Of a stretch of 14,637 nucleotides of DNA, positions 337 to 14,637 are shown piece after piece. Numbering within the stretch: position 1 is the first letter of the stretch; each line of letters starts with the position of its first letter. Origin of the DNA: Dehalococcoidales bacterium (GTDB lineage: Bacteria; Chloroflexota; Dehalococcoidia; Dehalococcoidales; UBA3254); contig JAFGOB010000055.1 in the NCBI GenBank assembly GCA_016926695.1, positions 1 to 14,637 of the forward strand. The letters are read 5' to 3'. The notes under the pieces were generated by a model, which was not told the DNA's origin, did not search any database, and was given only the letters and a program-made list of their open reading frames with translations. Made by a program: the position numbers and the translations under genes.

Positions 337-413
337 AGGTAATACGGGTCACCCCAGAGGCGGTCCCTTTATCACTATCACAGGCCCCAACCACGTATCT
401 GCTAGGTGCGTAG
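333..413 (+). CDS. 26-residue ORF coupled to the AAA+ gene, possibly frameshifted
   Basis: The ATG at 333 overlaps the stop of the ATPase gene (ATGA) and has a strong GGAGGG ribosome site at 321-326, 6 nt upstream, so translation initiation looks real. The ORF begins MKVIRVTPEAVP and ends after 26 residues; I recognise no family. The neighbouring frame (codons from 335) runs open to TAA at 428-430 and reads as ordinary protein with GGPFITITGPN and CVAVGGK. A single-base shift after about codon 9 would give a 32-33 residue product. The region may therefore hold a frameshifted small gene, a programmed shift or a sequencing error; the sequence alone cannot say which. Confidence 0.4.
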   Translation: MKVIRVTPEAVPLSLSQAPTTYLLGA

Positions 414-471
414 CTGTTGGAGGAAAGTAACTCGTATTTGCTGAACGGCTTACGAAAGGAGGTATACGGCA

Positions 472-1395: not shown

Positions 1396-1677
1396 ATGTT
1401 TGACCAAATGCAGCAGATGATGGCTTCGCCCCAGGCGAGGGAAATGGTGTTTAAGATGCTTGCCCAGCGGATAGCTCAGGCACCGCCAGAAAAGAAAGCA
1501 GCCCTGGCGCGGATCAAGGCGACCCTGGAAAAAACACCGCGAGGCATGTCTCTGGAAGTCGGGGCTTCTGACGACCCTCAGATCGAAGCGATGGTGAATG
1601 AAGCCATAGAAAACTGGACCGAGATGCTGTCCCGTGTATTTCAGTCCATGGGTTTCCAGGTGGAGATCATCGAGTGA
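1396..1677 (+). CDS. Small helical protein of unknown function (93 aa)
   Basis: The ATG follows the upstream stop with no gap (TAAATG), and AGAAGGAGAAGG within the end of the previous gene serves as ribosome site. The product is soluble and probably mostly helical. Its Met/Gln-rich N-terminus (MFDQMQQMMASPQ) echoes the Met-rich end of the preceding protein. The middle is basic (PPEKKAALARIKATLEK) and the C-terminus acidic and amphipathic, ending VEIIE. I recognise no family. Tight coupling to the zinc-finger gene suggests that the two proteins act together (inference). Its stop overlaps the GTG start of the next gene. Confidence 0.65.
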   Translation: MFDQMQQMMASPQAREMVFKMLAQRIAQAPPEKKAALARIKATLEKTPRGMSLEVGASDDPQIEAMVNEAIENWTEMLSRVFQSMGFQVEIIE

Positions 1678-1958
1678 TAAACTCAACCTTTCCAGCGACC
1701 AGTATTGATGTCATGTATCCTGCGAGAGTCATGATATTTGTATTTTTGCTTGGGATTACGTTTTCACTGACCAGGCCAAGCCGTCCTTCGTCAGAATCGG
1801 ACAATCGGTTGATGACATCGACGGTGCATGTTGATGGTTGGGAAGACTTGCCACCATGGCAGAAAAGAGCTTCACAGAAAGCCATCGTAAGATATTCTGC
1901 CACCCAGGAGAAAAAGTGGCGAAGATGGAACGAAGCCATGTTTGAGAGGTCGGAATGA
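1674..1958 (+). CDS. Small single-pass membrane protein, unknown (94 aa)
   Basis: Starts at GTG 1674, overlapping the previous stop (GTGA); GGTGGAGA at about 1659-1666 gives a ribosome site. Residues about 17-33 (ARVMIFVFLLGITFSLT) form one probable membrane segment. The C-terminal half is charged and Trp-rich (WEDLPPWQKR, KKWRRWNEAMF), probably helical. I recognise no family. The overlap with both neighbours and the full-length open frame argue that it is real although short. The stop overlaps the next ATG as ATGATG/TGA. Confidence 0.55.
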   Translation: MINSTFPATSIDVMYPARVMIFVFLLGITFSLTRPSRPSSESDNRLMTSTVHVDGWEDLPPWQKRASQKAIVRYSATQEKKWRRWNEAMFERSE

Positions 1959-2116
1959 TGCCAGTGAGTTACGAAAGAAAGCTGTTCAAAGTTGGGGAGG
2001 GTGGCGTCGCCGTCACTCTCCCCAAAGCCTGGATCAATTATTACGATTTGAAGCCGGGAGATAAGGTGGAGATTATCATTGAAGGAGATCTCGTCATAAG
2101 GGTATCCACTAAGTAA
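1955..2116 (+). CDS. AbrB/MazE/SpoVT-like DNA-binding protein (53 aa)
   Basis: This short gene opens at ATG 1955, overlapping the preceding stop; a second ATG at 1958 is equally possible, and GAGAGG at about 1945-1950 lies upstream. The protein is almost exactly one swapped-hairpin domain: RKLFKVGEGGVAVTLPKAW, a helix, then LKPGDKVEIIIEGDLVIRV. The pattern beta - (S/V)TLPK - helix - LKxGDxVEI - beta is typical of AbrB, MazE and SpoVT dimers, which bind DNA as transition regulators or as antitoxins repressing their own operon. No toxin gene follows: the next gene is convergent. A role as operon repressor or element copy-control factor is inference. It closes the plus-strand operon. Confidence 0.8.
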   Translation: MMPVSYERKLFKVGEGGVAVTLPKAWINYYDLKPGDKVEIIIEGDLVIRVSTK

Positions 2117-2150
2117 GAAATCCTTTGCGCAAAAATGGCATTTTGGGTTT

Positions 2151-3533
2151 TCAGGCTTTCATATTTTGGTATGGAAGCTTGACAGTGAACGTACTGCCAA
2201 CTTCAACCTCACTTTCAACTTCGATAATACCACCGTGCAGCTTGGCTATTTCCTGGCATATGGACAACCCCAGTCCGCTTCCGGAACCGGAAAAAGGTTC
2301 GACCCCAGGTACTCTGTAAAAACGTTCAAAGATATGGGGGAGGTACTCGTTGGCAATACCAATACCTGTGTCGGCTATGCTTACACAAGCGTTGCCATCA
2401 CTGACTTTCAAAGATACTGTGATCTCTCCTCCCTCGGGCGTGTACTTGATCGCATTGTCCACAAGGTTCAGGAATAGCTCTCTCAATCTTACTTCGTCCC
2501 CGTCTATTTTTACGTTGTCGGCAAGTGAAGTATTAAGTTGAATAACCCTTTCTTCGCGACGGGGGACGGTAATGGAGAGAACATCGTTCAGGATCTCCCC
2601 CAAATCTACGTCTTCTAGGTCCAGAGTTTCTTTCCTGTGATCTATGCGGGATAAGAAAAGAAGCTTGTTGACTATGGAAGACATATATGATACTTCGCGA
2701 GAAACATTTTCGAGCGAGTATTGATATTCCTCCTTATTTCGTGATCTGGATAACGTTAAGGAGGCTTCACTCCCGATGAGGGCAAGAGGAGCCCGGAGTT
2801 CATGAGTAACTTCAGAAGCGAATTGACGTTCGTGATCAATAGTATCTTGTAGATTTGCCAAGGCTTGATTGATAGAGGATGCAAGTCTATCAAGTTCATT
2901 TTGCCCACTTTGCTGATGATTTTGGGGATTATCGTTTTTAGAATTACTAACGGTCTGAAGTGCCCTGGTAATTCTGTCTAATGGGCCCAGAAGGCGTCTG
3001 ATGAGAAAGTACCCGAAAAGTCCTGCCACTAGCAAAGCGGTTGGTACGGCAATATAGAGCACCTGGACATATCCGGCTAGTATCGATAATACGGGCTTTT
3101 TCGATTGAGTCACGGCGAGAACGTCATAGTAATTCGGTTCATCTAAAGATGGACGGTAATAAATCCATACATCCACTGCGTTTACTATATCTTCGGTAAT
3201 AAACTTGCTTTGGTCGATAAATACAGTTCCTTCTGGAACTGAGTATTTGATCTGCCTGCTTTGTCCTGTCTGCGCTTCCTCGAGTTTATCTGACTGGATT
3301 GAATATGCTAAAAGAGGTAGAAATTCATCATTATTAGTAGATATTCCAGGCTTTTCCCTAATTCCATCTATTTCGACCTTAAATTCAGTAATCTTAACCA
3401 CTTCATAACTCGTCGAATTAGGAAACCGCGCCAGAAGAGTTAGCGTAATTGTGCACAACAGAATGATAATAGTGACCAAAATCAGCCAATACCACAAATT
3501 TATCCTAAACTTAATACTACTAAAATATTTCAT
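2151..3533 (-). CDS. Membrane sensor histidine kinase (460 aa)
   Basis: Full-length class I histidine kinase. A first membrane helix lies at residues about 13-35, an extracytoplasmic region at about 36-150 with no domain I recognise, and a second membrane helix at about 151-177. A HAMP linker follows (RRLLGPLDRITRALQTV onward). The HisKA H-box is ASEVTHELRAPL with phospho-acceptor His 244. The catalytic domain shows the N box (LVDNAIKYTP, Asn 356 and 360), G1 (DTGIGI, 388-393), F box (FERFYR) and G2 (GSGLGL, 417-422), so all kinase motifs are intact. It should autophosphorylate and pass phosphate to the regulator encoded just upstream. Its ATG overlaps that gene's stop by 4 nt (ATGA), implying coupled translation. 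The ligand is unknown; the divergent secreted proteins suggest an envelope or surface cue. Confidence 0.95.
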   Translation of the reverse strand: MKYFSSIKFRINLWYWLILVTIIILLCTITLTLLARFPNSTSYEVVKITEFKVEIDGIREKPGISTNNDEFLPLLAYSIQSDKLEEAQTGQSRQIKYSVPEGTVFIDQSKFITEDIVNAVDVWIYYRPSLDEPNYYDVLAVTQSKKPVLSILAGYVQVLYIAVPTALLVAGLFGYFLIRRLLGPLDRITRALQTVSNSKNDNPQNHQQSGQNELDRLASSINQALANLQDTIDHERQFASEVTHELRAPLALIGSEASLTLSRSRNKEEYQYSLENVSREVSYMSSIVNKLLFLSRIDHRKETLDLEDVDLGEILNDVLSITVPRREERVIQLNTSLADNVKIDGDEVRLRELFLNLVDNAIKYTPEGGEITVSLKVSDGNACVSIADTGIGIANEYLPHIFERFYRVPGVEPFSGSGSGLGLSICQEIAKLHGGIIEVESEVEVGSTFTVKLPYQNMKA

Positions 3534-4195
3534 GAGGATTTGAGCAAGTAGCCCGACCCCCTTACGGTTTCTATCATACTTTTTCCACTTCCGAGTTTAG
3601 CTCTAATTTTACATATATAAACATCCACAACGTTATAGTCTGAATCGAGTTCGATACTCTGGATCCGCTGCTCAATCATTGTTCGAGTAACAACTATGTC
3701 AGGGTGACGCATCAAGCATTCGAGAACCTCGTACTCTTTTCCTCTTATGTCCAAAGCTTGCCCCCGGAGCCAGACCTTTCTACTGCTGGGTTCCATAATG
3801 AGATCACCGACCTTAATTTTCTGAGAAACAATGATAGGGTTACGTCTTACAAGCGCTCGAACACGTGCATAGAGTTCCTCAAAATCAAATGGCTTGGTTA
3901 AGTAATCGTCTGCTCCACTATCCAGTCCTTGAACCCTGTCACGGATGCTATCGAGACCGGTCAACATGAGGATGGGTGTATTGAGTTTTTGTCCACGAAT
4001 CGTCTCACAGACACTGATTCCATCCTTGCCCGGTAGTTTTACGTCAAGGACTATAGCGTCGTAAGCAACATCATTCAAGATGAGTTCAGCGTCTTCCCCT
4101 GTATATGTCACGTCAACGCTGTAACCTTCCTCAGTCAAGCCTCTCTTTAATTTGTTCGCCATTCTCTTTTCATCTTCAACAACGAGGACACGCAT
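3530..4195 (-). CDS. OmpR/PhoB-family response regulator (221 aa)
   Basis: The receiver domain spans residues 1-118: acidic pocket E7/D8, phospho-acceptor Asp 51 (AIVLDVKLPGKDG), conserved Thr 79 (LMLTG) and Lys 101 (LTKPF). The C-terminal winged helix (about 125-220) has the family pattern with GKEYEVLECLMRHP, the recognition-helix segment SDYNVVDVYICKIRAKL and the closing VRGSGYLL. The length is normal for the family. Start ATG at 4193-4195 follows a G-rich ribosome site (AGGGGG on the minus strand). First gene of the two-gene kinase operon. The control region upstream holds 11-bp phased direct repeats that suit binding by tandem OmpR-type dimers, so it probably regulates itself and the divergent secreted-protein genes. 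Confidence 0.95.
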   Translation of the reverse strand: MRVLVVEDEKRMANKLKRGLTEEGYSVDVTYTGEDAELILNDVAYDAIVLDVKLPGKDGISVCETIRGQKLNTPILMLTGLDSIRDRVQGLDSGADDYLTKPFDFEELYARVRALVRRNPIIVSQKIKVGDLIMEPSSRKVWLRGQALDIRGKEYEVLECLMRHPDIVVTRTMIEQRIQSIELDSDYNVVDVYICKIRAKLGSGKSMIETVRGSGYLLKSS

Positions 4196-4225
4196 GCCGC
4201 CCCCTACTTTGGTACTATTTTCTTA

Positions 4226-4254
4226 ACTTTATCCAATATTTAATTTTTATTCAA
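4226..4254 (-). promoter_or_regulatory. Candidate promoter of the response regulator-kinase operon
   Basis: Reading the minus strand, TTGAAT (4254-4249) is followed by exactly 17 nt and then TAAAGT (4231-4226), each matching 4 of 6 consensus bases. Transcription would begin near 4220, leaving a short leader before the start codon at 4195. The -35 element overlaps the first TCAATG direct repeat at 4251, so a protein bound to the repeats would touch polymerase at this promoter, consistent with autoregulation. Confidence 0.5.
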
Positions 4255-4307
4255 TGATAAATCAATGATTTATCAATGTTAAATCCTGTAAAGTAACTCT
4301 TAAGTAA
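4251..4307. promoter_or_regulatory. 11-bp phased direct repeats, putative response-regulator operator
   Basis: TCAATG occurs at 4251, 4262 and 4273, each starting exactly 11 bp after the last, with similar A/T tails (ATAAA, ATTTA, TTAAA). A second pair, AAGTAA at 4291 and 4302, again has an 11-bp period. OmpR/PhoB regulators bind tandem half-sites at about one per helical turn, so this is the expected operator form between the regulator gene and its divergent target. No clear -35 is seen for the plus-strand gene at 4335, which would fit an activator-dependent promoter reading towards it. Confidence 0.6.
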
Positions 4308-4334
4308 TTACGTAGGTAAGAGAAGGAGAACTGT

Positions 4335-5060
4335 ATGGGATATAGAATGCGATTCTCAAAGAGCCTTCATCTTGTTATCGGGTGTTTGTTTCTTGGAATT
4401 TGTATTATAAGCGTGCTGCTTGCCGTGTTCCATAGTACTTCCGTAACGGCGGAGGAGAGACCCTTGAAGGCTATCGGTTACTACGAAGAAGATGGAATAA
4501 AGAACTGGCTGTACCCTGAGGACAGCATGGTCACCGTTGCCAGTTCACCTTCACAATTGGAAAAGGTTTTTCCCATGTCTTCAACGGTGGAGTCCTCCAT
4601 TATTCATGTTGAACTCGATTGCCCGGTCATCGTAGATGGTGTCAAGTACGAAGGAAACGAGATATCAAAGTTTAACGGTAAGAGATTGTATTTCATCATT
4701 GCATCGGATAGCACACTTTACGCTTTTACATCGGTTTCGGGGTTGGAAGATTATCAAGTACATTTACTCAACCAGCCGATATTGCGGTACGACGGCATCG
4801 ATTCATTGTTTTTCAAAGATGTAGGGTATGGCGGGGATAGCCTTGCAATGATCGTGGGGCACGGTATTTATGACCTGAATTCGATCGGTTATGACAATGC
4901 TCTCTCGTCGGCTAAAGTCACTTCTCTGGCTTCATGGGCTTACCTCTATGACTATCCCGATTTCCAAGGTGATTGTCTGGCTATTCCGGGTGGCGTTGAT
5001 GTGTCGAGTTTCGTGCCATACGGATGGAATGATAGGGCGTCATCTTTGGTAATACAATAA
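4335..5060 (+). CDS. Secreted protein with beta/gamma-crystallin-like C-terminus (241 aa)
   Basis: ATG 4335 follows AGAAGGAG (4321-4328). The N-terminus is a signal peptide: basic RMRFSKS, a hydrophobic stretch (about 11-32) and a VTA cleavage site after residue 39. ATG 4347 is an alternative start. Residues about 40-150 are unassigned. Residues about 155-241 look like paired Greek-key motifs of the beta/gamma-crystallin fold: aromatic strands (FFKDVGYGG, AYLYDYPDFQGD), and two copies of the calcium-site pattern (N/D)(N/D)xx(S/T)S, DNALSS at 187-192 and NDRASS at 232-237. Microbial members usually bind calcium and are often secreted. The gene is first in the plus-strand operon opposite the two-component system, 61 bp before the Rhs-type gene, which it may share a transcript with. 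A function in the envelope is inferred. Confidence 0.75.
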   Translation: MGYRMRFSKSLHLVIGCLFLGICIISVLLAVFHSTSVTAEERPLKAIGYYEEDGIKNWLYPEDSMVTVASSPSQLEKVFPMSSTVESSIIHVELDCPVIVDGVKYEGNEISKFNGKRLYFIIASDSTLYAFTSVSGLEDYQVHLLNQPILRYDGIDSLFFKDVGYGGDSLAMIVGHGIYDLNSIGYDNALSSAKVTSLASWAYLYDYPDFQGDCLAIPGGVDVSSFVPYGWNDRASSLVIQ

Positions 5061-5121
5061 GACCTTTATTAAAGAAACGAAATGAAAACAAATTAGTCCA
5101 GTTATTAATAGGGGGGAACCA

Positions 5122-8100
5122 ATGAATAATACAGATGTAAAATCAAGAAGTTTCTCAACCCGGCTCGTTTCGATACTCCTTATCGTTACTCTTTTGGTTG
5201 TGTCAGTATGCACGTCCGTTTTCCCGGTAACTGCAAACGATGGCGATCGAGACGATGATAACGCCGTTGTGCTCATACCCCCGGACATAGCTGTACTTCC
5301 AGATAGCACTGGCAATGCAAGCCAGGGAAAATCGGATAAAGAAGATCTTATCTTCATAGGAAAAACGGAAAAAGAAATCAATGCTGACGAATACGGAGAA
5401 ATTCGATCCGCCAGCGGTAAGATCTTGTTAAATGTTCCTGAAGGCTCGATAGCATCAGAAACCAATTTCAGTATCGATGAATACATCCCTCAGATGTCTA
5501 CCGGCATGCGCCTCATCAATTATATCGACCTTAATGCCGTAGAGGTTAACTCCAAGAGTGATGTTCACCAGTTCAACAAACCGCTCAACATCAGTATTAC
5601 ACACACGGAAGATGATCTTGCTGGAGTGGATCTAGACTCACTCAATCTATACTATCTCGATGAGAAGACGCTCTCCTGGATACCTGTTAAGAGTACATTT
5701 AACAGGGAGACTCTGACCCTTTCCGCCGAGATCAGTCATTTCAGTTCATATGGGGAGTTGGCCAACCCTCTGCAGAATGGCCCGGGGAGAGTAATGGCCC
5801 ACCAAGTGAGTCTTTACTCAGGGTCTGCCACCTATAAGTACACCATTAATTTGCCTCAGGGTCCCGGTGGATTCACGCCGCTCCTGGAACTCAATTACAA
5901 CAGTAGTTCCGTTGATGAAACGAAGAACAGACGCGCGGTAGCTTCGTGGGTGGGAACCGGCTGGAGTATGTCACTGGGCAGTATTACTCTGGATACGGCA
6001 ACTAAAGTGCATTACCTGGACTTAAACGGAGCTTCATACAGGCTTATTACCGAAAACGGTGTCAACTATTATACGAATCCGGACGTACATTTCAAGATCA
6101 CGCGCAATACTGCTGGAAACTATTGGGAAGTCTGGGACGTTGACGGAAATTATTACCGTTTTGGAGGGACAGCCGGATCACGGCAGTATCTATCCAATGC
6201 CATTTATTACCAATGGGATCTCAATCTCTTCCGTGATACCAAGTCAAACCAGGCTGAAATTACCTATACCCAGGACATCATCGGAACCGGAATTCAGTCA
6301 TGGGTAAGGACCGCGTACCCTGAGTACCTCAAATACGATTACGTCAACAGCAATTATCAGATAATCGTCAGTTTTATTACTGGAGGACAGATTGATCGCG
6401 GCGCCGACGGATGGCTGCGTCCCGATAATCCTATCAGCTATGGCACGAATCCTGCTCCAAAGATAATGGACACATGCCAACTTGACTCTATCGAGATTGA
6501 AATCGGGGGCGACCTGATACGCACCTACGACTTCTCGTACACCACGACAAATGCCACTCTCGATGCTTCGGAGTATGGCGGGATTTACTATGCCGGGCGC
6601 CATACGCTCTCTTCTATCGTTGAGACAGGCGTCGACGGTGAAGATACCTTGGCCTCAGAGAATCTGACGTTTTCTTATGAATTAAGAGACGTCTATCGCT
6701 CAAGCTCATCTTACGCTTATTTTGGAAATCCCGGTAATCCAACGGAACTGGAATGGCCTTACCTGACAAGCATAAACAACGGCTACACCGGTGAAGACGA
6801 TACAGTCACTTTTACTTATACACAAGCACCGAGCGGTACCCCCTCCGATATCTGGACTCGCCAGGTAGTCACGGAAAAATCTGTTAATGACGGCATGGGA
6901 AGCAGTCAGAATGTAACGTACCAATACACTGGAAATCCGCAGTATCTCGGTACCGGTTGGGATCAAAAATTCCGCGGTTTCACCCAGGTAAGAGAAACCG
7001 ATGTAGAAGAGAACTATGTTGTCCATTACTTTTACACGACCGGAACCGTTGATTCTGAACGATTGTCCGGAAGAGAATACCAGACTGATTGGTATGAACA
7101 TGGTGAAACCGATGTACTAGTCAAACGAGTAGAGTATGACTGGGCGGCGGAAGTCACCGCTGAACAAGATTGGGGCTATAATCTCGTTACCACATTCTCC
7201 CTGGAAAACCCGACTGCCATGGCGGTTTCTCCTGACGGATATCTCTACATCATTTCAGATAATGACAATGATGCATACGATTGCGTCCGCAAATACAAAG
7301 CGAACGGCACCTACGTTACTCAATTTGGCGCCGGCACGCTTACCGACCCCGGAGATATTGCAATCTCCAATGACGGCTATATCTTTGTGACCGATCCGAT
7401 TGATGACGATGTTGTCAAATACAACTCGGATGGATCATATAATACGACCTTTGCTTTACCTATCTCACGGCCTACCGGGATCGCTGTTTCACCAACCGGC
7501 AACTTTTATGTATCATCGCCTTACTATACGCGAATTTACGAATTCAATTCCTCGGGAACTTACACGGGGAACAATTTTTACGTTCCACCGCTGAGTGTTA
7601 CCTACGACCAACTCTCGATACCGGGAAACGCCGCCGATAGCAAGATGTACGCCACCTTCAACAACAATTCCTTCGCATGGATTGATGTCACATCTGGAAG
7701 TGGTTCCGGATGGACTTTGACCGTTGTCAATGACATCGATGTATCCGACGAGGGGATCGTCTTCGTCGCATCCGAGCATCAGCCATACGGAAAAGGTTTC
7801 CGGATATATGATAATTCATTTTCACTCCTCTACAGCTTCGATCTTTCACCAGTCCCCTATGACGGCATCGCAGTTGGTGATCACTATTTCTATATCACCT
7901 GTACCGTCGGCGACATCGCCGGGATTTTTGAACAGAAATTCTGCAACTGGGAAATATTGCTTGAAGGAGTCCAGGAAACCACTTATGGAACCAGCGGTAA
8001 CAAGATAGTTTCCACAGAATACGTGTACGATTCTTACGGCAACATTGTAACCGAAAAGCGCCATGGCGATACCTCAACGAATGATGATGATAGTACCATC

Positions 8101-11100
8101 TGGCGTACCTATAATTACAACACCAGCGCCAACATCCTGAATAAAACTTCCAGAGAACGGACCTATTCATCCATCAAGGCTTCCGATGACGGTGGTACCG
8201 GTCTCGCTTCACAAACGCTTTTCTACTATGATTCCAATAACAATTCCATCGCTACCCCTCCGACCATCGGAAACGTGACTCGCATCGAGCAGAGCGTCAA
8301 CGCAACAGCAAGCGTCAGTACTTACTTTACCTGGGATACTTATGGCAACCAGCTGTCCGTAACGGATCCGGAAGGTAATTCTACCAATACAACGTACGAG
8401 ACGACTTTTCACATCTATCCTGCAACCAAGACGCTGCCGCTTACCGGCCTCTCGGAAAATTATACCTATCAACCGGGGACCGGGAACTTGCTGGCGATAA
8501 CGGACATTAATGACAATACAACATACTACGAATATGATCCTCTGGGCAGGGTACTAAAGATCATCAAACCCGGAGATACATCGGAAAGCCCATCTATCGA
8601 ATATGAATACAACAACTGGGGCACGGTCAACCAGCAACATATCGCGACCATCACGAAGATAGATGGATCAAATTCAGCCTGGCAGAAGGAGTATTTCGAC
8701 GGGCTCGGCAGGGTACGGCAAGTCCATACGCAGGGTGAAGATGGCTATACCACCATTTCCGGTACGACTGCGTATGATAGCCGCGGTCTCGTTGAAAGAG
8801 AGTACCTTCCTTTCAGCTACAACGGAACTCCTACTTCTTATCAATCACCTGATGCGGGAGTGAAGTACACCTCTTATGGCTATGATGGTCTGGGCAGGGT
8901 GCTGACCCAGACAGCTCCGGACGAAATGGAAGTCAGCCATGATTTCTCCGTCGCCTGGCGTGAAGTCATCACGGATGCTTCCGGGAATACTACCCGGTAC
9001 TACTACGACGCTTTCCAGCGCCTTAAAACCGTAGAAGAGATGAGCAATCCTTCCACGGTGTATGCAACTACAGAATACACGTATGATGTCCTTGGCAACC
9101 TAATTGAAGTAGAAGATGATCACGGCAACATAACTTCCATGACCTATGACCGGCTCTCGCGCAAGACCGGCATGACCGATCCAGATATGGGTACCTGGTT
9201 CTATGGATACGACGATAACGGTAACCTTACCACCCAGACCGACGCCAAAGACCAGACCATCACCATGGTCTACGACGGTATGAACCGCCTGACTAACAAG
9301 AACTACCCGGCTGGTTCCGGTATGACAGATGTTGTTTACATTTTCGATCAAGGGACCAACGGCAATGGCCAGCGGACCGGCATGACCGATGCCTCCGGTA
9401 ATACCACCTATGAATATGATGCCCTCGGCCGGCTTGTCACCGAGACAAGAGTTATCGATTGCGTCTCCTATGAAACCTCGTATACCTACGACGGTCTGGA
9501 CCGGATAGCGACCATCACCTACCCCACTGGGGAAGTAGTCACCAACGGCTATAATGACCGAGGTCTGCCATGTTCACTGAATGGCACAGCAACGGGGAAC
9601 CTCGTTACCAGCACGCTCTATAACACCCTCGGGCTGATGACCGATATCAACCTGGGTAATGGTCTGAAGACCACTTATGGGTACTACGGCACCGGCGGCT
9701 CCTATGATACAACCGGCGGCTACTATGGCCGGTTGTGGGAGATCAAGACGCTGCCGCAAGCTGGCGGAGCAGCATTGCAGGATGTTCAATATGCTTGGGA
9801 TGCAAATGGGAATCTTGATGTCCGCACGGATGTCTTGACGTCAACCGTGGAAGACTTCTCCTATGACTTCCTTGATCGGCTTACCGGGGTATCGGACAAC
9901 TATACGGCAAATTACACCTATGATGAAATTGGTAATATCACCTCCATGAACGGCGTCAACTATACGTATGACAGCACTCAGCCTCATGCTGTGGACGCTG
10001 TAGGCTTATTGGGCTATGTATACGATGACAACGGTAACATGACTACACGCGGCACTGTTTCAGGTAACCAAACGTTGACCTGGGATGCTGAAAACCGCCC
10101 GATATCGGTTTCTTACAACGGAACGTCCGCTTCATTCGTTTATGACGGAGACGGCAAGCGCGTGAAGAAGGTAGAAGATGGAGTAACTACTCTGTATCTT
10201 AACCAATACTTTGAAGTAAATATCACGACGACAATAGAGACCAGTAACTATTACCTGGGTGGTAAACTCATTGCCATCAGCGAGAACGACACGGTACAAT
10301 ACCTCCACCAGGACCACCTTGGCAGTACGTCGCTCATGACTGATACCAGCGGCAACGTGACCAGTGGCATTACCTATGAACCGTACGGTGATACAGCCTC
10401 AGGTGATGTGGCAACAGACCGGAAATATACCGGCCAGCGTCTTGATGAAACGGGGCTCTACTTTTATAATGCACGGTATTATGATGCCGCAGTAGGGAGA
10501 TTCATCAGCTCTGATTCTATGATAGGAAACGCTTGTAATCCGCAAAATTACAACAGATACTCATATTGCCTAAACAATCCATTAAAAAATATTGATCCAA
10601 GTGGTCATATTGTACAAATTCATGGATTAGATGTAAGAATTGTCGATTCTTTAGCAAGTTGCTTTTTCCTGCCTGCAGAACTAGCAACTCTCATCTCAGA
10701 TGTGGTATCCTCACCAGAGTATCGAGCATATCAAGCCTTTAGAGATATGGGACCCGAAGCAAAGCATATGGCATGGACTATGGAAGAAAGTACCGAGCAT
10801 ATAGTTACAATAAACGCCGAAACGAGTAGGTATTGGGCTGAATCAAATAAAGAAGGAGATAACTACACAATATCGATAAACCCAGACTCCGAACATGAGG
10901 GTGCCGCTGCACAAGCTAGGGCGATATATTGGGAAGTAGACTCAACGGTTCTCGATAGACATCCTGATTTCGACTATGGATCGGCAGTGTGGGATCAAAC
11001 TGTAGGCGAATTAGTTTCACTCAACGGAAAAGTCGACGCAGTGGTTGCATTCGTGCAATATCTCTATGATGTACGAACAAGTAATCCAGCTATGGCTTTC

Positions 11101-11217
11101 ATGGATTTTTTCTTTTCAAGCTTTCCGTTAAGTGCATTTTTTTCTAATCTATTAAATCAACAAGAAAACCACGATCTTGGATACTTTATCGAGAACGAGC
11201 CATATCCTTTCAAGTAA
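5122..11217 (+). CDS. Secreted SpvB/NHL/YD-repeat (Rhs-type) giant protein (2031 aa)
   Basis: ATG 5122 follows GGGGGG at about 5111-5116. A signal peptide (residues 1-38, cleavage after VTA, as in the upstream protein) sends it through Sec. Residues about 90-215 are a beta-rich segment resembling ZU5-like domains. From about 218 an SpvB-like start appears (LYSGSATYKYTINLPQGPGG, then LLELNYNSSS). Residues about 687-940 hold NHL-like propeller repeats (PTAMAVSPDGYLYI, PGDIAISNDGYIFV, PTGIAVSPTGNFYV). YD repeats run from about 957 to 1727, forming the expected beta-cocoon shell. The Rhs core lies at 1731-1829 (DHLGSTSLMTD, YTGQRLDETGLYFYNARYYD, NPLKNIDPSGH). A distinct 202-residue tip follows. 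Exported YD proteins such as WapA deliver C-terminal toxins or act as surface structures; no type VI genes are seen. Probably expressed with the crystallin-like gene. Confidence 0.93.
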   Translation: MNNTDVKSRSFSTRLVSILLIVTLLVVSVCTSVFPVTANDGDRDDDNAVVLIPPDIAVLPDSTGNASQGKSDKEDLIFIGKTEKEINADEYGEIRSASGKILLNVPEGSIASETNFSIDEYIPQMSTGMRLINYIDLNAVEVNSKSDVHQFNKPLNISITHTEDDLAGVDLDSLNLYYLDEKTLSWIPVKSTFNRETLTLSAEISHFSSYGELANPLQNGPGRVMAHQVSLYSGSATYKYTINLPQGPGGFTPLLELNYNSSSVDETKNRRAVASWVGTGWSMSLGSITLDTATKVHYLDLNGASYRLITENGVNYYTNPDVHFKITRNTAGNYWEVWDVDGNYYRFGGTAGSRQYLSNAIYYQWDLNLFRDTKSNQAEITYTQDIIGTGIQSWVRTAYPEYLKYDYVNSNYQIIVSFITGGQIDRGADGWLRPDNPISYGTNPAPKIMDTCQLDSIEIEIGGDLIRTYDFSYTTTNATLDASEYGGIYYAGRHTLSSIVETGVDGEDTLASENLTFSYELRDVYRSSSSYAYFGNPGNPTELEWPYLTSINNGYTGEDDTVTFTYTQAPSGTPSDIWTRQVVTEKSVNDGMGSSQNVTYQYTGNPQYLGTGWDQKFRGFTQVRETDVEENYVVHYFYTTGTVDSERLSGREYQTDWYEHGETDVLVKRVEYDWAAEVTAEQDWGYNLVTTFSLENPTAMAVSPDGYLYIISDNDNDAYDCVRKYKANGTYVTQFGAGTLTDPGDIAISNDGYIFVTDPIDDDVVKYNSDGSYNTTFALPISRPTGIAVSPTGNFYVSSPYYTRIYEFNSSGTYTGNNFYVPPLSVTYDQLSIPGNAADSKMYATFNNNSFAWIDVTSGSGSGWTLTVVNDIDVSDEGIVFVASEHQPYGKGFRIYDNSFSLLYSFDLSPVPYDGIAVGDHYFYITCTVGDIAGIFEQKFCNWEILLEGVQETTYGTSGNKIVSTEYVYDSYGNIVTEKRHGDTSTNDDDSTIWRTYNYNTSANILNKTSRERTYSSIKASDDGGTGLASQTLFYYDSNNNSIATPPTIGNVTRIEQSVNATASVSTYFTWDTYGNQLSVTDPEGNSTNTTYETTFHIYPATKTLPLTGLSENYTYQPGTGNLLAITDINDNTTYYEYDPLGRVLKIIKPGDTSESPSIEYEYNNWGTVNQQHIATITKIDGSNSAWQKEYFDGLGRVRQVHTQGEDGYTTISGTTAYDSRGLVEREYLPFSYNGTPTSYQSPDAGVKYTSYGYDGLGRVLTQTAPDEMEVSHDFSVAWREVITDASGNTTRYYYDAFQRLKTVEEMSNPSTVYATTEYTYDVLGNLIEVEDDHGNITSMTYDRLSRKTGMTDPDMGTWFYGYDDNGNLTTQTDAKDQTITMVYDGMNRLTNKNYPAGSGMTDVVYIFDQGTNGNGQRTGMTDASGNTTYEYDALGRLVTETRVIDCVSYETSYTYDGLDRIATITYPTGEVVTNGYNDRGLPCSLNGTATGNLVTSTLYNTLGLMTDINLGNGLKTTYGYYGTGGSYDTTGGYYGRLWEIKTLPQAGGAALQDVQYAWDANGNLDVRTDVLTSTVEDFSYDFLDRLTGVSDNYTANYTYDEIGNITSMNGVNYTYDSTQPHAVDAVGLLGYVYDDNGNMTTRGTVSGNQTLTWDAENRPISVSYNGTSASFVYDGDGKRVKKVEDGVTTLYLNQYFEVNITTTIETSNYYLGGKLIAISENDTVQYLHQDHLGSTSLMTDTSGNVTSGITYEPYGDTASGDVATDRKYTGQRLDETGLYFYNARYYDAAVGRFISSDSMIGNACNPQNYNRYSYCLNNPLKNIDPSGHIVQIHGLDVRIVDSLASCFFLPAELATLISDVVSSPEYRAYQAFRDMGPEAKHMAWTMEESTEHIVTINAETSRYWAESNKEGDNYTISINPDSEHEGAAAQARAIYWEVDSTVLDRHPDFDYGSAVWDQTVGELVSLNGKVDAVVAFVQYLYDVRTSNPAMAFMDFFFSSFPLSAFFSNLLNQQENHDLGYFIENEPYPFK
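10609..11214 (+). other. Rhs C-terminal tip domain (residues 1830-2031), unassigned
   Basis: Past the DPSGH that ends the Rhs core, the last 202 residues match nothing I recognise, as expected for the variable, often toxic, tips of this family. Visible features are PEYRAYQAFRDMGPEAKHMAW, an ISINPDSEHEG segment, a helical VDAVVAFVQYLYDV and a strongly hydrophobic aromatic end (AFMDFFFSSFPLSAFF) that could insert in a membrane. There is no HExxH, HNH or other nuclease motif I can name. The DNA turns visibly AT-richer from about 10520, just before the boundary, and stays so through the next gene, which suggests replacement of the tip with its downstream gene. Toxin activity is unproven. Confidence 0.55.
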
Positions 11218-11236
11218 TGTTAGGGTTGAGTCTGAA

Positions 11237-12208
11237 ATGTGTATCCGATTCCATATGAGCTTGAGACTTATAGCAGCACTTGTATTACTATCAATCTCAG
11301 TCCTCGGATGTGAAAACACAGTTTCATCTATTGAGACTAGACAAGAATCGTCACCATGTGAATCTGATATCACTTATCCTGAAACAATCGAATGGCAAGC
11401 ATCATGGCCTCAAACCAATACACTTCTTGATATTTGGGGAAATTCTCCTTCAAATATTTACGCCGTTGGTTATAATGGTACTATTCTTCATAATGATGGC
11501 CAGGTATGGTCATCAATGGTCAGCGGGACTACTGTGAAGTTAACGGGTACTTGGGGAACTGATTCTGACGTTTTCGCTGTGGGTGAAAAAGGTACCATTT
11601 TGCGTTATAACGGCGATGTCTGGACAGAAATAGAAAGTGGAACAGAAGAAAATCTCCTCAGCATTTGGGGGACTTCTCCCTCGAATATATTTGTGAGTTG
11701 TTGGGGTCCGGGTACCATCCTACATTTTGACGGAGAAACTTGGAGTACTATTCAGACTGAACTTGATAAACCTATTCATAAAATATGGGGGTTCTCCTCG
11801 ACTGATATATTTGTGTCGGGCCGATACAATTCAGTACTACATTATGATGGAACAACATGGACTATATTAAAAAAGGAAGACGAATCCTATGGAATACTGG
11901 GATCTATTTGGGGTTGTACTTCAAAAAATGTCTTTGTTGGAGGTATAAACGGTAATATCGAGTATTACAATGGAGCAATTTGGAGTTCGATGCATACCGG
12001 GGTGAGTCAATATGTTAGCAGTATTTGGGGCACTTCCCTAAATAATGTGTTTGCGGTAGCTAACAAATCCATAATACGTTATGATGGCAGTAAATGGACT
12101 GAAATAGATAGTGGTGTGAATGATGGATTATACGCGATATGGGGTAGTTCACCACAAAACATTTATATTGTAGGCAATAACGGTGTTATTCTGCATTCTA
12201 GCGAATAG
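11237..12208 (+). CDS. Lipoprotein, predicted seven-bladed beta-propeller (323 aa)
   Basis: I chose ATG 11237, 19 nt after the Rhs stop, because it gives MCIRFHMSLRL and then a hydrophobic stretch ending SVLGC, a lipobox with Cys near residue 24. ATG 11255 is an alternative; a TTG at 11177 would overlap the Rhs gene and spoil the signal peptide. The ribosome site is weak (GAG at 11228-11230). The mature protein is seven tandem repeats of about 40 residues with the pattern IWGTSPSNIFAVG - GTILHYDG - W. The last repeat is short and the N-terminal IEWQASW could supply its missing strand, closing a seven-bladed propeller. The protein should be lipid-anchored outside the cytoplasm. Its place after an Rhs tip is where immunity genes usually sit; a surface partner or adhesin is equally possible. 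Confidence 0.8.
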   Translation: MCIRFHMSLRLIAALVLLSISVLGCENTVSSIETRQESSPCESDITYPETIEWQASWPQTNTLLDIWGNSPSNIYAVGYNGTILHNDGQVWSSMVSGTTVKLTGTWGTDSDVFAVGEKGTILRYNGDVWTEIESGTEENLLSIWGTSPSNIFVSCWGPGTILHFDGETWSTIQTELDKPIHKIWGFSSTDIFVSGRYNSVLHYDGTTWTILKKEDESYGILGSIWGCTSKNVFVGGINGNIEYYNGAIWSSMHTGVSQYVSSIWGTSLNNVFAVANKSIIRYDGSKWTEIDSGVNDGLYAIWGSSPQNIYIVGNNGVILHSSE

Positions 12209-12286
12209 CATTCTAGTAAGGTTTATTCCGAATTTCGACTCCTCTTAGCTGATCAATGGAGTGTTCTTTAGTAAATTCTTCTATAC

Positions 12287-12315
12287 TTGACCGTTCGTAA
12301 TCAATAAACTAGGCT
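12287..12315 (+). promoter_or_regulatory. Weak candidate promoter for the 12500 gene block
   Basis: TTGACC (12287-12292) is separated by 17 nt from TAGGCT (12310-12315). The -35 is good and the -10 poor. If used, transcription would start near 12322 and produce a leader of about 180 nt holding the helices described at 12324-12468. The rest of 12209-12323 is AT-rich with no gene or other site I can support. Confidence 0.25.
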
Positions 12316-12323
12316 TGAACTAT

Positions 12324-12364
12324 AGCCCTGAGAGCTTGACCGGTGAAGGTTGTCTCTCAGGGCT
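12324..12364 (+). terminator. Stem-loop with 11-bp perfect stem, probable terminator of the propeller gene
   Basis: AGCCCTGAGAG (12324-12334) pairs perfectly with CTCTCAGGGCT (12354-12364); the loop is 19 nt and TTTCTTC runs out of the stem. It lies 115 nt after the propeller stop. It may end the plus-strand transcript from 4335 onwards or, if the promoter at 12287 is real, be the first hairpin of a structured leader. The long loop and mixed T-tract make it less than ideal as an intrinsic terminator. Confidence 0.55.
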
Positions 12365-12400
12365 TTCTTCATTGGAAAAGCACTTCAGGGTCTGTACCAA

Positions 12401-12468
12401 AAGGGGTCGGCGATCCGGACCGGGAAGGTTCGAAGCTGACCCCTTCTCCTTTTTCAGCCCGGATCGCC
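12401..12468 (+). promoter_or_regulatory. Interlocking leader helices, terminator-switch or pseudoknot candidate
   Basis: Two long helices interlock. AAGGGGTCGGC (12401-12411) pairs with GCTGACCCCTT (12435-12445) over 11 positions with one G-U, and a T-run (12450-12454) follows, resembling a terminator. GGCGATCCGG (12409-12418) pairs perfectly with CCGGATCGCC (12459-12468). The 5' arms share GGC at 12409-12411 and the order is A-B-A'-B', so the full helices either exclude each other or fold as a pseudoknot. The second 3' arm ends 17 nt before GAGGAGG of the 12500 gene. This is the layout of an attenuator or riboswitch-like control, but no known class is recognised; a small RNA is another possibility. 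Confidence 0.5.
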
Positions 12469-12499
12469 TCCCCGAAATGATGATCGAGGAGGTATCCAC

Positions 12500-12712
12500 A
12501 TGGGCAAGTATGCAAGCTGGGCCGAGTTTGAACGGGAAGTTCCCGTTACCTACCAGGAAAAGGCGACCCCGGAATCCTATCGTACCGGCATGAACGGCAT
12601 CGCCCCCAACGGGATGCGGGTCAAGGAAGGCCGCGTCAACCACTACAAGGACGGCGTCGACGGCAAGGGTGAAGATGTGGTCAGAGGCTACAAACGCGCC
12701 ATGTTCGAGTAG
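12500..12712 (+). CDS. Small hydrophilic protein of unknown function (70 aa)
   Basis: ATG 12500 follows a strong GAGGAGG (12485-12491). The 70-residue product is soluble, charged and aromatic (MGKYASWAEFEREVP, NHYKDGVDGKGEDVVRGYK, ending AMFE), with no membrane segment and no family I recognise. It lies alone between a structured leader and a strong terminator, so it is probably its own transcription unit. GC-rich third positions match the downstream genes rather than the AT-rich propeller gene. A structural or DNA-associated role in the element is only a guess. Confidence 0.6.
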   Translation: MGKYASWAEFEREVPVTYQEKATPESYRTGMNGIAPNGMRVKEGRVNHYKDGVDGKGEDVVRGYKRAMFE

Positions 12713-12737
12713 GAATCCCATCCGGTGCCTCCTGATG

Positions 12738-12766
12738 CCTGCCGCCATCACGGCGGCAGGTTATTT
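12738..12766 (+). terminator. Intrinsic terminator after the 70-aa gene
   Basis: CCTGCCGCC (12738-12746) and GGCGGCAGG (12752-12760) form a perfect 9-bp GC-rich stem with a 5-nt loop, followed by TTATTT. It sits 26 nt after the stop at 12712 and should end that transcript. Read-through would feed the methionine-rich gene cluster. Confidence 0.75.
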
Positions 12767-12799
12767 CCCTTAAAGCACCACGGAACTGACGCAGCTGAG

Positions 12800-13235
12800 T
12801 AAGGAGGAAAGATGTTCACAGGACAGCAGGTAACCGGGCCGGTAGCCCCCGGACAGTACAGTCCCACCCAGGTCAGCGGACCTTCGGCTTACTACCCGGC
12901 CCAGACCTCGGACTCTATCACGAGTATGTTCAGCGCCATGATGCCGATGATCATGATGATCATGATGATGGCCATGATCATGCCGATGATGAAGGGCGTC
13001 ACGGCCTCATCCAACAACTAAGTAACTCCAACCTATTAAGGAGGAAGAAGATGTTCACAACGCAGCAATTCGCCGGGCAGCAGGTCAGGCCGCAGCAATA
13101 CCAGTACGGCACGGTATCGGGCTACTACCCGACACAGACGGACCAGATGTCCAGCATGTTCAACGCGATGATGCCGATGATCATGATGGTCATGATGATG
13201 GCGATCCTCATGCCCATGATGAAGGGTGTCACCGG
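12800..13235 (+). repeat. Tandem gene duplication of the methionine-rich protein
   Basis: The two genes share the ribosome site and start (AAGGAGGA, ATGTTCACA) and long similar stretches over the helix-coding part, such as ATGATGCCGATGATCATGAT and ATGATGAAGGG followed by TGTCAC/CGTCAC. Units run roughly 12800-13010 and 13039-13235. The ATG-rich triplet content makes the DNA internally repetitive and prone to slippage. Confidence 0.65.
12812..13021 (+). CDS. Methionine-rich small membrane protein, copy 1 (69 aa)
   Basis: ATG 12812 has AAGGAGGA (12802-12809) just upstream. The N-terminal half is polar and rich in Gln, Pro, Gly, Ser and Tyr (MFTGQQVTGPVAPGQYSP, AYYPAQTSDS). The C-terminal half is a single membrane-spanning segment (about residues 38-62) built largely of methionine, including MMPMIMMIMMMAMIMPMMKG; 14 of 69 residues are Met. 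A short VTASSNN tail ends it. There is no signal peptide, so the helix itself would target the membrane. It is paralogous to the next gene. I know no family of this exact form; small virion-membrane or membrane-remodelling proteins are possible. The thiol-ether-rich helix might bind copper or silver, but no polar metal motif supports that. Confidence 0.65.
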   Translation: MFTGQQVTGPVAPGQYSPTQVSGPSAYYPAQTSDSITSMFSAMMPMIMMIMMMAMIMPMMKGVTASSNN

Positions 13236-13251
13236 CTCCAGCAAGTCCTAG
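13051..13251 (+). CDS. Methionine-rich small membrane protein, copy 2 (66 aa)
   Basis: ATG 13051 follows AAGGAGGAAG (13039-13048). The same plan as the preceding gene: MFTTQQ start, Gln/Tyr-rich stretch (VRPQQYQYGTVSGYYPTQT), then SMFNAMMPMIMMVMMMAILM and PMMKGVTGSSKS; 14 of 66 residues are Met. The helix and the PMMKGVT end are nearly identical to copy 1, whereas the polar halves have diverged. That pattern suggests duplication followed by selection on the membrane part. The two probably form hetero- or homo-oligomers in a membrane (inference). It lies 32 nt before the 233-aa gene, likely in one operon. Confidence 0.65.
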   Translation: MFTTQQFAGQQVRPQQYQYGTVSGYYPTQTDQMSSMFNAMMPMIMMVMMMAILMPMMKGVTGSSKS

Positions 13252-13283
13252 CCAGGGCGAAATCTACGAGGAGGTTTTACAGG

Positions 13284-13985
13284 ATGAACAAAAATATCGT
13301 TCCGCAGCAGTATGCGGGCACGCGGCCTCCCAAGGGATGGGTGCCTCCGCTGGGACAGTGGCTGACTCTGCTCGGTGCCTATGACAATGACTCCGGCTAC
13401 TGGGTCGGTCTCCCGCTCCAGGTGCTCTCCGAGCAGCTCGTCCTGGCTGAAAAGCAGCACGCCCTGGACCGCATCGATCCCAGGAACGGCCAGGTATCGA
13501 TCACCGTCCCCATCGGTACCGCGGTCGGCGCTTCGGTGACCGGTGAAATCGAAGTCCCCACTGGCGAGATATGGTACCTCAGGGGCCATGAGATCCGGGT
13601 CCACCAGCAGGCGGCCCTCACCGCGGGCGATCTTATCTGTAATTTCAGGGTCTCACGGTTCCCGGTAACCGACGATGTCGCCAAGCTGTTCTACAGTACC
13701 AACGACCGGCTGACAGCTACCCAGGCATTGATCGCCGCCGGCGATGTCTATGACCATGACCTGGTACTTACTGGTGCCTACTGGGATGGTGCCGCTGAGG
13801 TAAAAGTCTACCGCGAGGAAGTCAGGGACTTCGCCGATCTCGATGAGCTTGGTAACGCGCTGAGACTTGTCGGCGGGGACAAACTCACGCTTGTGGCCAC
13901 GGGCGAAACGGCGGCCATTGCCGGTGGCGCGGTCACTGTCGATCTCACCGTCTGGGGGCTTCGGGGCAAGCGGCTGGTATCGTAG
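13284..13985 (+). CDS. Beta-rich protein of unknown function, possible structural protein (233 aa)
   Basis: ATG 13284 follows GAGGAGG (13269-13275). No signal peptide or membrane segment. The N-terminus NIVPQQYAGTRPPKGW shares the PQQY motif of its neighbours. From about residue 68 onward the sequence alternates short strands, with VSITVPIGTAVGASVTGEIE, then VPTGEIWYLRGHEIRVH (91-107), LICNFRVSRF and a Gly/Ala/Val-rich C-terminus ending LRGKRLVS. A VPxGxxWxLxG strand is common in viral coat, spike and fibre beta-sandwich domains, so a jelly-roll-like structural protein of a virion or surface layer is my best guess, but I cannot name a family. It is the largest product in the cluster and sits among small membrane proteins, as a coat or spike protein might. 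Confidence 0.65.
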   Translation: MNKNIVPQQYAGTRPPKGWVPPLGQWLTLLGAYDNDSGYWVGLPLQVLSEQLVLAEKQHALDRIDPRNGQVSITVPIGTAVGASVTGEIEVPTGEIWYLRGHEIRVHQQAALTAGDLICNFRVSRFPVTDDVAKLFYSTNDRLTATQALIAAGDVYDHDLVLTGAYWDGAAEVKVYREEVRDFADLDELGNALRLVGGDKLTLVATGETAAIAGGAVTVDLTVWGLRGKRLVS

Positions 13986-13993
13986 GTGTTGAC

Positions 13994-14500
13994 ATGCCGG
14001 CTGCATTTGTATCGCCGGGGTGCCAGGCCGTCCTCATCGGGCAAGCCGTTGACATAGAGGACCTGGGGACCTTCGCACCGCTGGAAGAAAGCTCTGCCGA
14101 AGGTACCCCGGTCCTCCTGAAACTATCCTTTGCTACAATGCCTTCCGATGAAACGCTGTCTAATCTGGAGCAATCCTGTCGCGATGCGCAGATCGAGCTT
14201 TTCCCCGGCTGTCAGTTCTATGTTTATGCCGCCCCGGACGAGAACAGCGTCTACCTGGTCTGGCAAAAAGGCATGCCCTGGCTGGTGATCATTGTCGGGA
14301 TCGTTGCCACGACCGTGTTACCGCCCTTGCTCGGCGCCGGTCTCTGGCTTATCCTGCCCGACTCGATTAAAAGCCTGATTTCCAGCCTGCTCAACATGGG
14401 CATGATGCTGCTGATGATGTGGCTCGTCATGAGCCTGGTAAAGCCGATGATGGCTCCGCCGAAGGAGAAACCCAGGTTTCAGAGGGAGGTTACCGAGTGA
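13994..14500 (+). CDS. Two-helix membrane protein with methionine-rich second helix (168 aa)
   Basis: ATG 13994 follows an AGGTG (13984-13988), 8 nt after the previous stop. Residues 1-93 look like a soluble alpha/beta domain (LLKLSFATMPSDETLSNL, QIELFPGCQFYVYAAPDE). Two membrane helices follow, at about 95-120 (MPWLVIIVGIVATTVLPPLL) and 127-149 (LISSLLNMGMMLLMMWLVMS). The second is Met-rich and is followed by KPMMAPP, resembling PMMKG of the two small paralogs, which hints at a common origin or an interaction surface. A charged tail (KEKPRFQREVTE) ends it. No family recognised. The stop overlaps the next GTG start (GTGA). Confidence 0.7.
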   Translation: MPAAFVSPGCQAVLIGQAVDIEDLGTFAPLEESSAEGTPVLLKLSFATMPSDETLSNLEQSCRDAQIELFPGCQFYVYAAPDENSVYLVWQKGMPWLVIIVGIVATTVLPPLLGAGLWLILPDSIKSLISSLLNMGMMLLMMWLVMSLVKPMMAPPKEKPRFQREVTE

Positions 14501-14637
14501 ATTACCTGCCCCAACAATACAGTAACTACCCGACATCGGGCTACGAGCCCCAGTTCTGGCAGGTCCTCATCGGCGGCGTCATCGACGTGGTCATGCTGAT
14601 CGCCCTCGGAGCCTGGGCCTTGTCACTGGTCAAGAAA
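14497..14637 (+). CDS. Small membrane protein, 3' end outside window (47 aa visible)
   Basis: GTG 14497 overlaps the preceding stop by 4 nt and has AGAGGGAGGT at 14481-14490. The visible part begins MNYLPQQYSNYPTSGYEPQF, a Gln/Tyr/Pro-rich N-terminus carrying PQQY like its neighbours. A membrane helix follows (about 20-44: WQVLIGGVIDVVMLIALG, AWALSLVKK). The frame is still open at the window end. No family recognised; it is clearly part of the same co-translated cluster of small membrane proteins. Confidence 0.65.
   Translation, partial: MNYLPQQYSNYPTSGYEPQFWQVLIGGVIDVVMLIALGAWALSLVKK

Follow-up and report, generated by a model that had tools for sequence, protein, structure and literature searches.

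MetA and MetB, paired methionine-rich membrane proteins of an overlooked, possibly virus-like element integrated in Dehalococcoidia

Two adjacent small genes in a 14,637-nucleotide stretch from a Dehalococcoidales bacterium (contig JAFGOB010000055.1, positions 1 to 14,637; this whole stretch is called the window) encode MetA and MetB, single-span proteins with a membrane helix built largely of methionine (Met). Judged from sequence comparison, the pair is real and conserved, is undescribed in the searches made, and belongs to an element that has been overlooked. On balance, we lean toward MetA and MetB being membrane proteins of the particle of a temperate, tailless, membrane-containing virus-like element, chromosomally integrated in Dehalococcoidia. 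We favor this reading because gene order is conserved across independent copies that carry recombinases, a phage-type recombination directionality factor (RDF), and a modeled jelly-roll protein beside the pair, and because Met-rich helices also end other late-operon proteins, while the host proteins and other element membrane proteins checked lack them. We infer viral status from this context; packaging and tail hallmarks were not recognized in the proteins scanned, nor was a free particle found. Below, L-numbers are loci and G-numbers genomes carrying element copies (G001 is the genome of L002).

The two genes are as follows.

12812-13021, + strand: MetA, 69 amino acids (aa); N-tail, Met-rich helix S38-K61 (about 12923-12994), short C-tail.
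13051-13251, + strand: MetB, 66-aa paralogue of MetA; helix S35-K58 (about 13153-13224).

A first-pass annotation, made from the letters alone, had described two adjacent small open reading frames (ORFs) with strong ribosome sites, runs of Met, and about one-fifth Met overall. Both ORFs were present where it had placed them, each with an AAGGAGG-type site upstream, and each product contains 14 Met (20% of residues in MetA, 21% in MetB; hand count on translations), including the run MMPMIMMIMMMA in MetA. Most of these Met sit in one membrane-length helix of about 24 residues (SMFNAMMPMIMMVMMMAILMPMMK in MetB), preceded by a nearly uncharged N-tail of about 35 residues rich in Q, P, Y, and G (RPQQYQYGTVSGYYP in MetB). 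The motif PMMKGVT is conserved, as that annotation had said; it is not the end of the protein, since five more residues (ASSNN or GSSKS) lie between it and the C-terminus.

A joint MetA/B profile (built from 19 homologues; 7976 candidates scored) returned 1056 proteins at an E value of 1e-3 or below. Among the best 120 of these, organism names, where given, were Dehalococcoides, Dehalogenimonas, Dehalococcoidales, or Chloroflexi/Chloroflexota, and some homologues come from records named D. mccartyi and Dehalogenimonas. Relatives with a conserved Met-rich helix, whose absence the first-pass annotation had named as grounds for abandoning its proposal, were thus found by the homologue search, and their comparison bore out a conserved helix with diverged polar halves. 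Its statement that no family had been described agreed with the curated libraries: nothing for MetA or MetB exceeded the Pfam cut-off (best PF20088, E value of 0.05, under its cut-off), and there was no match in PHROGs, NCBIfam, PADLOC, or PDB sequences (query A1). A further PDB sequence search, with query A5, gave two rows, with E values of 0.72 and 0.89. Several homologues carry the public label "cell division protein FtsH"; Pfam and NCBIfam scans found no FtsH or other domain in the window's MetA and MetB, and the label is apparently a misannotation.

Both reading frames are under purifying selection. The nonsynonymous-to-synonymous ratio per codon (pN/pS) was 0.31 for 19 MetA and 0.26 for 22 MetB sequences, and 0.23 and 0.21, respectively, over the helix alone. 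Changes of Met codons were rare in these 41 rows, with mostly Leu, Ile, or Phe as replacements; the rows were prefiltered for at least 8 Met (two L024 rows being dropped), which biases Met conservation within them upward. On these codon substitution data, we rejected the idea, to which we give next to no credence, that the pair is a low-complexity artefact of ATG-repeat slippage in spurious ORFs. ATG-rich tracts do occur, but conserved codons for P, I/V, A, and K interrupt them, the ribosome sites are conserved in the window, and pairs have been kept over deep divergence.

As a check free of the Met filter, copies were located through the neighboring p192-family gene, which encodes the jelly-roll protein. 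This family was found at 19 places in 12 of 294 genomes (the class of G001) and in 8 of 400 genomes of a phylum sample, all eight of which were already within the class sample. A Met-rich single-helix gene lay directly upstream of p192 in 19 of 19 copies and the tandem pair in 18, the exception (L025/L047) having one divergent, less Met-rich gene. Homologues, tandem conservation, and purifying selection together support real, selected, paralogous single-helix membrane proteins, as first proposed.

Within the main-group rows (Met-filtered, as above), Met at i, i+4, and i+8 (M-x3-M-x3-M) was invariant in 19 of 19 MetA and 22 of 22 MetB. Ctr1-type copper transport helices carry M-x3-M, and this ladder is what would favor a Ctr1-like bundle that binds or conducts soft metals (Cu+/Ag+), a form of the soft-metal-binding helix suggested at first pass. 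That suggestion was weakened by the most divergent homologue (L047 10806-10985), where L, T, and V occupy the ladder positions (by-eye alignment). The alignment of MetA/B homologues also contains no conserved Cys, His, or extramembrane Met motif, and tails of a similar kind are found at the ends of unrelated proteins, one of them a protease. We regard a metal-binding bundle as very improbable.

The Met content of the MetA/B helix is far beyond chance, and this composition is itself the surprising part of the finding. As a host control, 288 nonoverlapping ORFs of at least 100 aa were taken from 15 stretches of 20 kb on one host-type chromosome (G054). Membrane windows with hydropathy of at least 1.5 (n = 294) averaged 0.66 Met per 19 residues and never held more than 3; at 1.2, the cut-off also used for the element, the mean was 0.62 and the maximum again 3 (n = 449), and the maximum over all hydrophobic 19-mers was 4. 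Counts per 19 residues in the L001 copy at the 1.2 cut-off were 9 for MetA, 10 for MetB, 11 for p157M, and 7 each for p225M and the subtilase tail (hydropathy, 1.35), so three further operon proteins end in helices with 7 to 11 Met. The L001 p175M has 3, and p73, the holin-like p108, and p93 have 0 or 1. In other copies, the last 48 residues contained 10 to 13 Met in p157M (8 copies besides L001), 8 to 12 in subtilase (10 copies), 3 to 8 in p225M (12 copies), and 2 to 9 in p175M (12 copies), a multi-span protein with its Met-containing helix near the end.

A hidden Markov model (HMM) built from 41 MetA/B helix segments matched the p157M tails of 9 element copies (E values of 1.9e-7 to 1.5e-4), and the p157M tail is therefore detectably related to MetA/B. 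The same model found three divergent MetA/B sequences, which come from G267 and G231 (E values of 3e-5 to 2.4e-3); among 1361 host ORFs (at least 50 aa, all frames) it had no hit. It did not match the tails of p225M, subtilase, or p175M; these share with MetA/B only composition and, except for p175M, C-terminal position.

Gene order of the element is largely conserved in L001, L002, L003, L006, G054, two G018 copies, G088, G216, and G194 and partly kept in the divergent G231, G267, and G064 (L002 differs at the left end, and some contigs end early). The left end holds a serine recombinase (Resolvase and Recombinase domains; 517 to 673 aa in six copies, 301 aa in L001, where it is clipped by the locus end), an M78-like protein (below cut-off), and a helix-turn-helix (HTH) repressor (− strand). 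These are followed by an HTH protein, a Gp3-like RDF (phage-type, PF18897), a DUF3854 primase, DnaJ, and an AAA (MoxR-like) ATPase, and then by a zinc-finger protein, small proteins, and, in some copies, a MazE-type regulator. The late operon consists of a leader, p70, MetA, MetB, p192, p175M, p58, p225M, p155, fibre-like proteins (by eye; one of these variable genes gave a weak tail-fibre match, E value of 0.057), subtilase, a holin-like protein (E value of 0.0096, under its cut-off), more fibre-like proteins, p127, p192b, p157M, and a tyrosine recombinase, which comes in addition to the serine recombinase. The membrane proteins are predicted from sequence. To the right, a DUF192/ArdC fusion and ORFs of 177 aa, 201 aa, 419 aa (clamp-like, by eye), and 161 aa are conserved in several copies, and on this ground we put the element at about 28 to 31 kb, cargo included. 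Up to three copies occur per chromosome.

In the copies examined from G018, G054, and G216, a transfer RNA (tRNA) gene adjoins the left end. One G018 copy starts behind tRNA-Val, with about 42 kb before homology to G054 resumes, versus about 1.5 kb in G054. In five copies, the stretches searched at the left end and in the right flank shared no direct repeats of at least 13 bases, and blastn of window positions 12300 to 14637 against phages gave no match. The L001 subtilase matched 45 phage records, all below 60% identity, which were taken as generic proteases. In PADLOC, the AAA ATPase and subtilase resembled broad families including IetS; we did not read them as a defense system, because the genes are far apart and the subtilase has a Met tail.

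Several further features of the element were observed. p127 (L001 18016-18399) and p192b (L001 18411-18989) have in most copies a common C-terminal motif, roughly ISEFKIADFxKV, perhaps a second assembly tag. The small tyrosine recombinase at the end of the late operon (L001 19472-20167) has a zinc-ribbon stretch between its two matched integrase pieces, and in L039 10845-12494, which has relatives in other copies, a hydrophobic segment separates a DUF192 domain from the ArdC-type anti-restriction domain fused to it.

The neighboring genes in the window are listed below.

13284-13985, + strand: p192 family, predicted jelly-roll protein, 233 aa, soluble; N-terminus PQQYAGTRPPKGWVPP.
13994-14500, + strand: p175M family, 168 aa; soluble N-terminal part, then hydrophobic segments, the last one Met-rich (LLNMGMMLLMMWLVMSLVKPMM; 8 Met in 20). 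Met content differs between copies.
14497-14637, + strand: p58 family, first part of a small single-span protein rich in Q, P, and Y, truncated where the window stops; its GTG start (assigned by judgement) overlaps the p175M stop.
12500-12712, + strand: p70, 70-aa soluble protein, first gene after the leader.
1955-2116, + strand: MazE/AbrB-type regulator (PF04014); in L001 and some other copies, the regulator gene immediately precedes the leader.
472-1395, + strand: C2H2 zinc-finger protein, early region of the element.
1-336, + strand: C-terminal piece of the AAA (MoxR-like) ATPase, 69% identical to L001 6802-7740; the piece itself is without a Pfam match.

Several related elements have a second, diverged p70 copy downstream of the tyrosine recombinase. 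The N-termini of MetB (QQFAGQQVRPQQY, 13051-13100) and the jelly-roll protein (PQQYAGTRPP, 13284-13330) are alike, and p58 is likewise Q/P/Y-rich; a shared recruitment motif is possible.

The p192 fold is predicted to be a jelly roll that resembles viral capsid and cement proteins and, equally, some nonviral domains. A first, weaker model (the window's 233-aa protein; predicted local distance difference test [pLDDT] score of 70) gave 47 viral rows out of 50 VIA rows in the fold comparison; its structural search against viral predictions used a viral-only collection and is therefore nondiscriminating. With the better model (a 192-aa orthologue; pLDDT, 81.6), viral rows fell to 26 of 50 and CBM4 and PHM ranked highest, for which reason we keep the claim low and call the protein a candidate capsid or cement protein. 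Absence of a family from the fold-tool listings does not count against it.

Several results weigh against a virus-like particle. Pfam and PHROGs scans, covering part of the element ORFs, recognized no HK97-fold capsid, large terminase, or portal, and where a packaging ATPase was looked for, they gave only the DUF3854 primase and the AAA (MoxR-like) ATPase. A Walker A scan of ORFs of at least 80 aa in the G054 copy returned only the primase ORF, with a pattern that also misses the degenerate MoxR motif. Searches of p192 against phage and plasmid collections gave no match, and scans of IMG/VR (MetA alone, A1, A2, and A4) yielded a single contig, found by three queries and not by A4. Together with the nonviral resemblances of the jelly roll and with the G018 copy, which has ArdC-type anti-restriction and TIR proteins and restriction- or methylase-like ORFs (by eye) of kinds common on plasmids, these results speak for an integrative plasmid-like element rather than a virus, in which MetA/MetB and the tailed proteins would form or cover a structure of the cell surface or envelope (serving exclusion, vesicle release, or S-layer modification) that aids maintenance or transfer. 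We think this unlikely, though it deserves serious weight. It sits poorly with the phage-type RDF, the HTH and M78-like regulators, the weakly holin-like gene, the jelly-roll protein, and the fibre-like variable genes with their one weak match, and no relaxase or conjugation gene was seen among the proteins scanned.

Charge bears on orientation and on another alternative. Among MetA/B homologues, the N-tail has a net charge of −2 to +1 (the script clipped it too short in two rows), and the short C-tail is +1 or +2 in 41 of 43 and 0 in two; the p157M C-tail is negative. By the positive-inside rule, a near-neutral N-tail and positive C-tail fit an N-out/C-in topology, which is that of inoviral coat proteins, so the pair offers this trait of an inovirus coat, with topology read from charge only and the coat role putative. 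MetA/MetB could then coat a filamentous or budding virus, with the positive C-tail turned toward the DNA and the virus extruded through the membrane without lysis. We hold this improbable: no Zot-type extrusion ATPase matched in the Pfam scan of part of the element ORFs, a weakly holin-like gene is present, the jelly-roll and immunoglobulin-like proteins are without obvious signal peptides (by eye), and 28 to 31 kb is large for an inovirus.

The late operon is preceded by an RNA leader.

12403-12473, + strand: leader RNA of the late operon; terminator and antiterminator helices, with covariation.

A G+C-rich terminator hairpin (12403-12411/12435-12443) plus T tract is mutually exclusive with a longer antiterminator helix (12409-12418/12459-12468, plus GGGG/CCCC) that uses the same 5' strand. 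Equivalents lie upstream of p70 in 11 other copies; among the 12 compared, the minimum-energy fold was terminator-like in 3 and antiterminator-like in 9 (by eye). For the terminator, all 54 cells of 6 distinct arm pairs can pair (shuffles, 50.0 ± 1.3; 42 of 2000 reach 54), with four pair types at one position. For the antiterminator, 90 of 100 cells of 10 distinct arm pairs can pair (shuffles, 78.2 ± 2.5; 0 of 2000 reach 90); six positions pair in every one of the ten and show two or three pair types each. The 3' arm of this helix was chosen by a best-complementarity script, which favors pairing, and the shuffles ignore relatedness. Rfam had no match in 12200 to 14637. From these comparisons, the leader is probably an attenuator switch of the late operon. 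Between MazE and the leader, about 10 kb of cargo (2117-12320; GC content of 0.45, against 0.52 and 0.58) encodes a histidine kinase, a response regulator, a weakly crystallin-like protein, a 2031-aa RHS-repeat protein, and a beta-propeller-like protein. The low-GC genes at a comparable position in G088, G216, and G194 are different ones, so the site may be a cargo hotspot.

If MetA and MetB are particle proteins of a virus-like element, as we favor, the Met-rich helices would pack against one another and form a flexible matrix within the lipid layer of the particle, under or beside a jelly-roll shell. Thioether side chains are long, unbranched, and flexible, and by this reasoning many packing geometries would be possible. 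MetA and MetB would be the abundant filler, and larger proteins would attach by inserting their own Met-rich tails. Expression of the late operon would probably be set by the terminator/antiterminator leader. Assembly from the cytoplasmic side and release by lysis would fit, since no signal peptide was seen by eye in MetA, MetB, the jelly-roll protein, or the tailed proteins and a weakly holin-like gene is present. Among the three ideas of the first-pass annotation, which also included a membrane-remodelling oligomer, the flexible virion-membrane protein fares best, backed by its context of late operon, jelly roll, weakly holin-like gene, and other Met-rich C-terminal helices. A bolder version, doubtful and offered tentatively, is that these elements are temperate viruses of wall-less Dehalococcoidia, tailless and membrane-containing, and form a lineage not yet described, in which a MetA/MetB methionine matrix fills the virion membrane and spike, protease, and others plug in by like tails. 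We know of no described virus that uses a common Met-rich transmembrane module as a particle-building principle.

Membrane helices made almost wholly of methionine appear not to have been described in the libraries and literature searched. Literature searches found no paper describing the element (subscription journals were mostly outside their reach), and among the abstract openings listed, the wording "methionine-rich helix" occurred only for CueO, a multicopper oxidase. The contrast between 1056 homologues and one IMG/VR contig means that virus detectors tuned to known hallmarks may miss this group. MetA/B would offer a natural test of how a methionine-built helix behaves in a membrane; in strictly anaerobic hosts, Met oxidation is less costly. 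If the bolder version above is true, such particles could also ferry genes, such as dehalogenase genes, between Dehalococcoidia.

Among known systems, the inovirus major coat proteins pVIII and Pf3 are, like MetA/B, small single-span proteins with a near-neutral N-tail and a positive C-tail. The element differs in its much larger size, in the Zot ATPase not found, and in carrying its Met-rich helix in tandem paralogues. The cement protein of phages KHP30/KHP40, the one gene product of theirs that was compared, is also a jelly roll, at 8 to 14% identity. The Dehalococcoides prophage of Waller et al. (2012) shares a chromosomal location and a Dehalococcoides host; as far as the available text goes, it is Siphoviridae-like (PMC3462421), and the present element differs from it for that reason, no tail, terminase, or portal having been recognized in the proteins scanned. 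Dehalococcoides also has genomic islands that insert at ssrA; according to the text available, these have at their left end a 540-aa serine recombinase encoded on the reverse strand, and they carry variable cargo (PMC3146451). Our element likewise has a large, reverse-strand serine recombinase at its left end (ORFs of 517 to 673 aa) and variable cargo, but a tRNA gene rather than ssrA beside the left end (G018, G054, and G216), and a virion-type operon is not mentioned for the islands in that text (PMC3146451).

The nearest working model, by analogy, would be the internal-membrane single-jelly-roll viruses (Halopanivirales), which include Simuloviridae such as SNJ1, Sphaerolipoviridae such as HCIV-1/HHIV-2, and Thermus phage P23-77 (PMC12642351, PMC6414509). 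According to the portions of these sources at hand, such viruses have two capsid proteins of the single-jelly-roll kind and a putative ATPase for packaging (PMC12642351, PMC6414509); here there is one jelly-roll candidate (p192) and the packaging ATPase was not found, so membership is not claimed. The element is moreover integrated beside a recombinase rather than episomal, and Met-rich helices are not mentioned in the same portions (PMC12642351, PMC6414509). The likeness, within what those portions cover, lies in a jelly-roll shell candidate and a number of small membrane proteins, predicted in our case, of which some carry a transmembrane helix at the C-terminus (PMC12642351, PMC6414509). 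It extends to regulation: SNJ1 is temperate, its lysis-lysogeny switch is described as a MazE-superfamily protein (SNJ1 ORF4; PMC12642351), and a MazE-superfamily regulator stands here upstream of the late operon.
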